In this document: one piece after another, positions 2-4,461 of the stretch
How the letters are laid out: each line of letters begins with the position of its first letter
How positions within the stretch are numbered: position 1 is the stretch's first letter
DNA from: Hydrogenophaga sp.
GTDB taxonomy: Bacteria > Pseudomonadota > Gammaproteobacteria > Burkholderiales > Burkholderiaceae
Direction: 5' to 3'
Length of the DNA stretch: 5,383 nucleotides
NCBI GenBank assembly: GCA_025458545.1
Contig: JALOSH010000436.1
Coordinates: 1-5,383 of the forward strand
Program-made: the position numbers and the translations under genes
The notes under the pieces: model-generated
The model's database searches: none
The model's input: only the letters and a program-made list of their open reading frames with translations
What the model was told of the DNA's origin: nothing

Positions 2-1012
2 CAGTCTGACCGCAGCCCGGTGCGGGTCGCGTTGGCCATGGGTCAACAGCGCGTGGAGCTGCAGGCCGGCGACGCGGCCGCTCTCGCGGGCACCAACGGA
101 TGGCTGTTCGAATTCCACAAAAACCTGGCCTCGGCGAGCCAGCCGTTCGACGTGGTGGCCCAGCAGCGCTTGGGCTGGTCTCAACTGCCCTGGGGCCGCA
201 TCGCGGGCTGGACCGCCGCCGTGACCGCTGTGCTGTTGCTGTTGGCCCAGTTGCAGCGCCAGCGCACCGCGCGGCGCCGTGCCGAAGAGCTGCTTCGCCT
301 GGGCCAGGTGGCGCGCCTGAACACGCTGGGCGAACTCGCCGCCGGCATGGCACACGAGCTCAACCAGCCGCTGACCGCCGTGCTCGCGAACACACAGGCC
401 GCGCAGCGCCTGCTGGCCGACGAACCGCCCGAGCTGGACACCGCCCGTGGCGCGATGACACAAGCGGTGGCCCAGGCCCGGCGTGCTGCCGACGTGGTGG
501 GTCGGCTGCGCGCCACGGTCGAACGACCACCGCGCCAGGGCGCCGATGGTTCGGCCGACGTGGTCGACCTGACCGAGGCCCTCAGGCGCGCGCTGCACCT
601 GCTCGAACCGGAATGCCGACAGCGCGGCATCGTGCCCGATCTTCAAACCACCGAAGCGTTGCGGGTGTGCGCCGACCCGGTGGCGGTGGACCAGATCGTG
701 CACAACCTGCTGACCAATGCCCTGCAGGCGATGGACGCGGTGGACGCATCGCAACGCGCCCTCAAGCTGGTGGTGCAGCGCAGCGGTGGGGCGGGCGAGA
801 TCGTGGTCGCCGACCACGGCCCGGGCATCGCACCCGAGCTGCTGCCACGCCTGTTTGAACCGTTCTTTTCCACCCGGGAAGGCGGCCTGGGCCTGGGGCT
901 GCCGCTGTGCGAAACCCTGGCGCAAGGCATGGGCGGCAGCCTGTCGGCCGCCAACCGGCCCGGCGGTGGCGCGGTGTTCACGCTGCGACTGCCCTTGCAG
1001 GAGAGCGCATGA
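2..1012 (+). CDS. Sensor histidine kinase, C-terminal part (5' end outside window)
   Basis: This is the membrane sensor kinase of a two-component system. It should autophosphorylate on a histidine and pass the phosphate to the regulator encoded next. The frame is open to the left edge, so the start and most of the sensor region are missing. About 60 residues of probable periplasmic sequence precede a hydrophobic segment (nt ~200-253, GWTAAVTAVLLLLAQL) and an Arg-rich juxtamembrane helix. The H-box LGELAAGMAHELNQPLTAV places the phospho-acceptor His at nt 353-355. This H-box is of the HPK4 type found in FixL, DctB and TodS. The N-box has HNLLTNALQAM (Asn at 704 and 716), the G1 box DHGPGIAPE (from 812) and the F/G2 boxes LFEPFFS...GGLGLGLPLC (~851-910). 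All ATP-binding motifs look intact. The stop overlaps the regulator's ATG, so the two are translationally coupled. The signal sensed cannot be read from this fragment. Confidence 0.93.
   Translation, partial: QSDRSPVRVALAMGQQRVELQAGDAAALAGTNGWLFEFHKNLASASQPFDVVAQQRLGWSQLPWGRIAGWTAAVTAVLLLLAQLQRQRTARRRAEELLRLGQVARLNTLGELAAGMAHELNQPLTAVLANTQAAQRLLADEPPELDTARGAMTQAVAQARRAADVVGRLRATVERPPRQGADGSADVVDLTEALRRALHLLEPECRQRGIVPDLQTTEALRVCADPVAVDQIVHNLLTNALQAMDAVDASQRALKLVVQRSGGAGEIVVADHGPGIAPELLPRLFEPFFSTREGGLGLGLPLCETLAQGMGGSLSAANRPGGGAVFTLRLPLQESA
999..1003 (+). promoter_or_regulatory. Shine-Dalgarno site that fixes the response-regulator start
   Basis: AGGAG lies five bases before the ATG at 1009. 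An in-frame ATG also exists at 907, but it would add 34 residues with no homology to receiver domains and would overlap the kinase G2 region. The SD position and the ATGA overlap favour 1009. Confidence 0.8.
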
Positions 1013-1614
1013 ACACGCTCTCGCCCACCATCCACCTGATCGACGACGACGCGGCGGTGCGCGAGAGCCTGGCCTTGCTGATCGGCACCGTGGGCCTGCG
1101 CGTGACCCCCTGGGCCGAACCGCAGGCCTTTCTGAGCGGTTTCGACCGCGAGGCCATCGGCGCCATCGTGCTGGATGTGCGCATGCCCGGCATCAGCGGC
1201 CTGACCGTGCTCGACACCCTGGTCGCGCAGGGCGTGGACCAGCCGGTCATCATGCTCACCGGTCACGGCACGGTGGACATGTGCCGACGCGCCTTCAAGG
1301 CCGGCGCGGCCGAGTTTCTGGAGAAGCCGGTCAACGACGAGCTGCTGATCGAAGCCCTGCAGAACGCGGTGCGACAGCATGTGCGCTCGCGCGAGCGGCA
1401 CCAGGCCGACCGCACCGCGCGCGAACGCTACGCGCAACTCTCCGAGCGCGAGCGCGAGGTGCTGGGCCTGATCGTCGCGGGCCTGACCAACAAGCTCTCG
1501 CCACGCACGGTCGAGACGCACCGGGCCAATCTGTTTGCCAAGCTGCAGGCCGAATCGCTGGCACAGCTCATTCGCCACTACGCGGCGCTGGTCGACGAGC
1601 ACGACATCGGCTGA
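1009..1614 (+). CDS. FixJ/NarL-type response regulator with shortened HTH domain
   Basis: This is the 201-aa cytoplasmic partner of the upstream kinase, similar in length and layout to FixJ (about 204 aa). The receiver domain (residues ~7-120) has the acidic pocket D12-D13, phospho-acceptor D56 in LDVRMPG, T84 in LTGHG and K106 in EKPV, so phosphorylation should work. A charged linker (~121-140) leads to a LuxR/GerE-type DNA-binding domain (~143-195) with LSEREREVLGLIVAG and SPRTVETHRANLFAKL. Family members usually read N-K-x-I-A-x-x-L-x-I/L-S-x-R-T-V-E. Here K162 is followed directly by L163-S164, so about seven residues are absent between nt 1494 and 1495. That removes most of the scaffold helix (alpha-8) while keeping the frame. 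DNA binding may be altered or lost. The likely native targets are its own operon or the hbpS-like/ankyrin pair downstream; this is inference. Confidence 0.92.
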   Translation: MNTLSPTIHLIDDDAAVRESLALLIGTVGLRVTPWAEPQAFLSGFDREAIGAIVLDVRMPGISGLTVLDTLVAQGVDQPVIMLTGHGTVDMCRRAFKAGAAEFLEKPVNDELLIEALQNAVRQHVRSRERHQADRTARERYAQLSEREREVLGLIVAGLTNKLSPRTVETHRANLFAKLQAESLAQLIRHYAALVDEHDIG

Positions 1615-1740: not shown

Positions 1741-2232
1741 ATGAAAGCCATCGTTTCCGCCTCTGCCATCGCCCTGTCCCTGATCTACACCGCCGCCAGC
1801 GCACAGGCCGTGCGCACCGAGAAAAACATGTCGCTCGATCTTGCGAACCAGATCGCGGCCGCCACCGTCGCCGCCTGCGCGGCCAACCACCACAACGTCA
1901 CCGCCGCCGTGGTCGACCGCGCCGGGAACCTGCGGGCTTTGCAACGGGCCGACAACGCCGGCCCGCACACCGTCGGCGCGGCGCAAGGCAAGGCCTACAC
2001 CTCGGCCTCGGCCCGCAACGCCACCACCGCCATGCTGGAGAACGTGCAAAAGAACCCCGGCGCGGCCACGCTGGTGGACATCCCCGGCTTCCTCATCCTG
2101 GGCGGCGGCGTGCCGATCCGGGTTGGCAACGAAGTGATTGGCGCGGTGGGTGTCGGCGGCGCGCCTGGTGGTCACCTGGACGAGCAATGCGCCAACGCCG
2201 GCATTGCCAAAGTGGCCGAGTTGCTGAAATGA
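1741..2232 (+). CDS. Secreted GlcG/HbpS-family (DUF336) heme-binding-like protein
   Basis: This 163-aa exported protein belongs to the GlcG/HbpS family. Some members bind heme, and Streptomyces HbpS modulates a sensor kinase under redox stress; other members have no known role. The Sec signal peptide has a short basic start (MK), a hydrophobic core and a likely cleavage after SAQA (residue 23), so the mature protein should be periplasmic. Family landmarks are VVDRAGNL (57-64), R69-x-D71, the K84-A region, PGFLILGGGVPI (115-126), VIGAVGVGGA (132-141) and DEQCA (147-151). The mature part has two cysteines, C46 and C150, which could form a disulfide. Heme ligands cannot be assigned by eye. The start is supported by GGAGA six to ten bases upstream. 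The gene overlaps the ankyrin gene by ATGA, so the two are probably made together. Placement after a kinase/regulator pair suggests a sensory or redox role. Confidence 0.9.
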   Translation: MKAIVSASAIALSLIYTAASAQAVRTEKNMSLDLANQIAAATVAACAANHHNVTAAVVDRAGNLRALQRADNAGPHTVGAAQGKAYTSASARNATTAMLENVQKNPGAATLVDIPGFLILGGGVPIRVGNEVIGAVGVGGAPGGHLDEQCANAGIAKVAELLK

Positions 2233-3198: not shown

Positions 3199-4461
3199 TT
3201 ACGAAAGCGTGACCCGGGCAAACTTCCGCTTGCCCACCTGCACCACGTACACACCGGCGCCCAGCTTCAGCCCCTTGTCGCTGACCACCGACGAGTCGAT
3301 GCGCACACCGCCGCCGTCGATCAACCGGTTGCCTTCGCCATTTGAAGCAACCAGCCCCGCGGCATTGAGCAGCGCCGCCACGCCCATCGGCGCGCCCGAC
3401 AGCGAGACCTCGGGAATCTCGTCCGGCACGCCACCCTTGCTGCGGTTGATGAAGTCCTGCTCCGCCGCATCCGCCGCCGCCGCGCTGTGGAAACGCGCGG
3501 TGATCTCCTTGGCCAGCAGCACCTTCGCATCCTTGGGGTTGCGACCGCCTTCGACTTCCTTCTTCAGCGCCTCGATCTGTGCCATCGACTTGAACGACAG
3601 CAGCGTGAACCAGCGCCACATCAACGTGTCCGAAATCGACAGCACCTTCGCGAACATGCTGTTCGCCTCTTCGGCGATGCCGATGTAGTTGTTCTTGGAC
3701 TTGGACATCTTGTCGATGCCGTCCAGACCCTCCAGCAGCGGCATGGTCAGGATGCACTGTGGCTCCTGGCCGTATTCCTGCTGCAGGTGGCGCCCCATCA
3801 GCAGGTTGAACTTCTGGTCGGTGCCGCCCAGCTCCAGGTCGCTCTTGAGCGCGACCGAGTCGTAACCTTGCATCAGCGGGTACAGGAACTCGTGCACGCT
3901 GATCGGCGTACCGGCCTTGAAGCGGTCGTGAAAATCGTTGCGCTCCATCATCCGCGCCACCGTGTACTTGGCCGCGAGCTGGATCATCCCCATCGAGCCC
4001 AGCGGCAGGCTCCATTCGCTGTTGTAGCGAATCTCGGTCTTGGCCGGGTCCAGCACCAGGCTGGCCTGCTTGTAATACGTCTCGGCGTTGGCCTTGATCT
4101 GCTCGCTCGTCAAAGGCGGGCGGGTGTTGTTGCGGCCCGAAGGGTCGCCGATCAGGCTGGTGAAGTCGCCAATGAGGAAAATCACCTGATGCCCCAGGTC
4201 CTGCAACTGGCGCATCTTGTTGAGCACCACCGTGTGGCCGATGTGGATGTCCGGTGCCGTCGGGTCCAGACCCAGCTTGATGCGCAACGGCACGCCGGTC
4301 GTTTCGGAGCGGATCAGCTTCTTCACCCAGTCGGCCTGGGGAATCAGCTCCTCGATCCCTCGCAAGGTGACGGCCAGCGCCTCGCGGACACCGTCGGTCA
4401 GTTGCCCGTCTGCAGGCGCCTGATTCTGAACACTTTCGACGTCATTTTGGCGGGTGGTCAT
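3199..4461 (-). CDS. tyrS: Tyrosyl-tRNA synthetase
   Basis: This 420-aa class I aminoacyl-tRNA synthetase charges tRNA-Tyr with tyrosine using ATP, in the cytoplasm. The Rossmann catalytic domain carries the HIGH signature at residues 73-76 (PDIHIGHT) and KMSKS at 251-255. Other landmarks are [16 protein letters not shown] (95-110), YPLMQGYD (194-201) and LGGTDQKFN (211-219). An anticodon-binding helical region follows, and an S4-type RNA-binding domain ends the protein (~358-418, with [15 protein letters not shown] and [11 protein letters not shown]). Length and motifs fit the bacterial TyrRS form common in proteobacteria; all key motifs are intact. The ATG at 4459-4461 is chosen because it opens the frame. 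The Shine-Dalgarno there is weak (GGAAA about ten bases upstream), so a start a few codons inside the unconserved first ~20 residues is possible. It is a core gene, convergent with the accessory-looking left block. Confidence 0.98.

Follow-up and report, generated by a model that had tools for sequence, protein, structure and literature searches.

The window, a single contig of 5,383 bases coding for six proteins, carries the 3′ part of a histidine kinase gene and, overlapping its end, the gene of a FixJ/NarL-type response regulator that lacks seven residues of its LuxR-type helix-turn-helix (HTH). The genome loci nearest to the window come from Hydrogenophaga and other Comamonadaceae, and in loci L001–L008 each of the six window proteins has a relative, in unchanged order. 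The features that bear on the gap are these:

2–1012, plus strand: histidine kinase, 3′ part (HisKA and HATPase_c), its 5′ end lost at the contig edge; the partner kinase of the regulator.
1009–1614, plus strand: FixJ/NarL-type response regulator of 201 amino acids, its start overlapping the kinase stop.
1030–1359, plus strand: receiver domain (residues 8–117), from a domain match; D12-D14, D56, T84 and K106 are present, in invariant columns.
1435–1578, plus strand: match to the GerE (LuxR-type HTH) profile (residues 143–190), with the gap inside it.
1494–1495, plus strand: junction of the missing 21 nucleotides (nt), placed by comparison with relatives, which have an EIGRALD-type segment here.
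1629–1646, no strand: palindrome CTCCGTATTTCTACGGAG, one base from the CTCCGTAGTTCTACGGAG of relatives; probable operator.
1741–2232, plus strand: gene of an HbpS-like protein, from its open reading frame (ORF) and domain match; probable target of the regulator.

The regulator ORF extends from the ATG at 1009 to the stop at 1612–1614 and contains LSEREREVLGLIVAGLTNKLSPRTVETH; the ORF list gives this frame from an upstream GTG. At the junction the protein reads GLTNK/LSPR, with K162 ending at 1494 and L163 beginning at 1495, and relatives carry seven further residues at this point, typically EIGRALD, which leaves the window gene 21 nt short without a change of frame. Relatives show little or no variation at six of these seven positions and vary at the seventh. 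The residues on either side are strongly conserved, and the gap therefore does not depend on how the alignment is placed. The initial annotation had described this in-frame loss, its conserved flanks and an otherwise normal sequence in the receiver and recognition helix, all of which the ORF and the relatives bear out; its comparison with FixJ also holds, as FixJ in structure 1x3u reads VVAGLPNKSIAYDLDISPR and is seven residues longer at the junction. We take D12-D14, D56, T84 and K106 to have the receiver-domain roles of these residues.

No relative that we examined shares the gap. First, exactly seven extra residues stand at the junction in all 80 genome loci compared, the best 80 of 133 relatives found. 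Second, two protein searches (the best 120 of 6792 and the best 120 of 3131 matches) gave a pool of 196 proteins including P0001, which is the window's own. Seven residues are found in 194 of them (184 counted by script and 10 by eye), eight in P0130 and none only in P0001, so that at least seven are kept in all 195 others; the database groups proteins into clusters at 90% identity, and gap-bearing members may sit within clusters or at lower ranks. The search with residues 145–186 alone ranked P0001 at the top with 74 bits, ahead of a protein with 63 bits, and contained no second gap-bearing protein among its best 120 of 3131 matches. The closest protein, P0002, which differs from the window protein at four positions outside the gap, retains the scaffold-helix residues, as do the Hydrogenophaga and other Comamonadaceae orthologues in L001–L008. 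The suggestion that all orthologues might show the same gap as a subfamily trait is thereby excluded.

Third, a search of the genus gave some match in 59 of 67 genomes, near full-length in 32, and 30 of these exceed the matched part of the window gene by exactly 21 bases; the genomes partly overlap those of the 80 loci. The other two are G439, longer by 20 bases with a translation that has no gap, and G446, shorter by 30 bases. A junction-spanning pattern matched nothing in 399 family genomes, in a search run without a positive control, and the exact 27-base junction string had no match in viral contigs. Two side observations concern the relatives themselves: P0130 has one extra glycine within its HTH segment (ALGGLSPR), and L072, L074 and L075, which lie amid mostly Comamonadaceae matches, are labelled as Bordetella parapertussis metagenome-assembled genomes, labels that may be misassigned.

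The domain matches persist across the gap. The receiver scores 85.7 bits against PF00072 (cut-off 30.2) and the C-terminal domain 51.1 bits against PF00196, GerE (cut-off 23.5), over profile positions 2–56 of 57. The window protein does not have the full HTH of four helices, in which a scaffold helix precedes the recognition helix: it is short of seven residues and has only a three-residue turn at that place in its AlphaFold model. The intact P0002 is modelled with C-terminal helices at 146–156, 161–168, 172–185 and 191–207, and the window protein with helices at 146–156, 165–179 and 184–200, the turn lying between the first two; local confidence over residues 161–170 is 68 in the window protein versus 94 in P0002. 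With P0002 as control, the gap and the model agree with the initial claim that most of the second, scaffold helix has been lost.

Characterized proteins of the same architecture are complete at this site. FixJ (1x3u; 5xso/5xt2 of Bradyrhizobium japonicum) shares the receiver and LuxR-type HTH and aligns closely on both sides of the gap, but it has the seven HTH residues (1x3u and the full-length 5xso) that the window protein is without. The window contains no recognised nitrogen-fixation gene, and the NCBIfam FixJ equivalog NF006900 scores 190.1 bits, below its cut-off of 255, on the gap-bearing protein, the only one scored. StyR of Pseudomonas fluorescens (1yio), the top-ranked structural match of both models, likewise shares the architecture but has seven residues at the junction; the structure alignments drew on 28 and 27 of the 196 proteins. 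Our literature searches found nothing relevant on LuxR/FixJ in-frame deletions, as judged by titles and the beginnings of abstracts, no match on the scaffold helix or on spontaneous loss of function, and nothing relevant on this two-component system in Hydrogenophaga.

Beyond the regulator, the window retains the palindrome. In 70 of the 80 loci an 18-base CTCCGTAGTTCTACGGAG site with at most three mismatches lies no more than about 400 bases past the regulator, and in 22 it is perfect; the nearest loci are not independent, as the consensus was built on the first loci. In the remaining 752,150 bases of these loci there are only five such sites, all of them further after the gene in loci that have no near site. 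From its position and symmetry, the palindrome is probably the operator of the orthologous regulator group. It was not found in the papers searched, either as such, in its variants or as the fragment TACGGAG. The single-base difference in the window is a change from G to T, which we considered as decay accompanying loss of the regulator and rejected, as the same change is present in L044, L050 and L062, among other relatives whose regulators are intact.

The likeliest explanation is that the regulator of one strain has recently lost its DNA binding; an error of sequencing or assembly comes a close second. Specifically, we think it probable, if far from secure, that an in-frame deletion of 21 nt arose recently in a Hydrogenophaga-like lineage and produced a null regulator allele, possibly a weakly dominant-negative one. 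The deletion would have removed most of the scaffold helix from the LuxR-type HTH of this FixJ-like regulator. The cell would presumably go on making the protein, and the kinase phosphorylating it, and dimers may still form; the recognition helix, however, could not be placed on DNA and the HbpS-like gene downstream would no longer be regulated. Among the functional readings proposed initially, a DNA-binding-dead allele appears to be the best.

If real, the allele is a naturally occurring knock-out of a two-component system of Comamonadaceae, and comparison with the intact neighbour P0002 would help to reveal what the regulator controls. The finding leaves knowledge of LuxR-type HTH domains unchanged. 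The palindrome beside the regulator, a candidate operator of the orthologous group that can be tested, is a more useful by-product than the gap.

A lesion of this kind would be young. Outside the gap, the window protein differs at six positions from the residue most frequent in 40 close relatives, and at each of them its residue recurs in a relative. The ratio of non-synonymous to synonymous substitution rates (dN/dS) of the regulator against L001–L010 is 0.04–0.18, a value shaped mainly by evolution that preceded the deletion. The remaining genes of the window have open frames and align to L001–L008 with gaps of no more than one to four residues, although the L003 kinase alignment spans residues 154–334 only. 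The recurring residues, low dN/dS and open neighbours give no sign of a gene long disused. This absence of decay fits a young deletion and an error equally well.

Error in the reads, library or assembly, by which the organism has a normal gene and the 21 nt went missing during production of the contig, is accordingly a serious rival, to which we give a substantial but smaller share of belief. Several points weigh against a genuine deletion and for such an error: the gap is seen in a single 5,383-base contig, and the protein is otherwise near consensus, with four other differences from P0002; there is also a comparable lesion in a draft genome. The orthologue in G446 (L093, 1292–1861) keeps its HTH residues and has lost 17 receiver residues in frame, between the CR of MCRR and the ELL of NDELL and including the KP motif, a gap absent from the other 12 loci compared with it. 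Draft genomes thus do contain isolated in-frame gaps in this regulator gene, through error or otherwise. The gap in the window may stem from a chimeric or damaged read where coverage was low. The preserved frame argues against error, as do the remaining genes, open and with small gaps only, and the short direct repeats at the junction in relatives.

Those direct repeats measure 0 bases in 48 of the 80 loci, 1 in 25, 2 in 5 and 3 in 2, and with so little microhomology an assembler collapsing a repeat offers no ready explanation. On these figures, which describe the codons of the relatives, slippage between direct repeats gives no clear cause and was rejected. In 4 of the 80 loci, all within the nearest eight (L001, L003, L006 and L008 by reading of the alignment), the missing stretch has a perfect 6-base inverted repeat at its two ends, and a polymerase may have skipped the resulting hairpin, in the library or in the cell. 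Single-stranded DNA of L001 and L003 folds barely better than shuffled sequence (z = -1.33 and -1.10). The inverted repeat adds to the case for error, but a hairpin skip serves a deletion as well as an error and leaves the odds between them unmoved.

Compared with a recent null deletion or an error, a working protein kept by selection, either as a phosphate sink or as a regulator acting through receiver contacts, is improbable. It would account for the intact receiver sequence, the entire ORF in frame and the low dN/dS; a young lesion, however, yields an identical pattern, the dN/dS mostly records the time before the deletion, and the gap is common to no relative examined. A minimal LuxR-type HTH of three helices that could still bind DNA, a form of the minimal HTH suggested by the initial annotation, is highly improbable: the recognition-helix sequence and the palindrome are retained, the recognition helix is still helical in the model and the GerE match persists, but no second example was found in the loci, the listed proteins or the 399-genome pattern search, and model confidence drops exactly at the gap. 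Because of these last two results, and with the gap seen nowhere else within our searches, a new type of HTH is without support. We give equally little credence to a scaffold helix that is dispensable in this HTH family, with a three-helix output domain still finding CTCCGTATTTCTACGGAG or an output independent of DNA.

At gathering thresholds, Rfam gave no match on the window. Its other features are as follows:

1685–1718, no strand: AATTTCTACAGTTCTCCCACGGTTGATCGAACCG, a second conserved intergenic block before the HbpS-like gene.
2229–2909: ankyrin-repeat protein.
3199–4461, minus strand: gene that we take, from its sequence, to be that of tyrosyl-tRNA synthetase.
4662: start of a further gene.

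The intergenic block is near-identical in seven of the eight aligned relatives, the piece of L002 having ended too early to include it.
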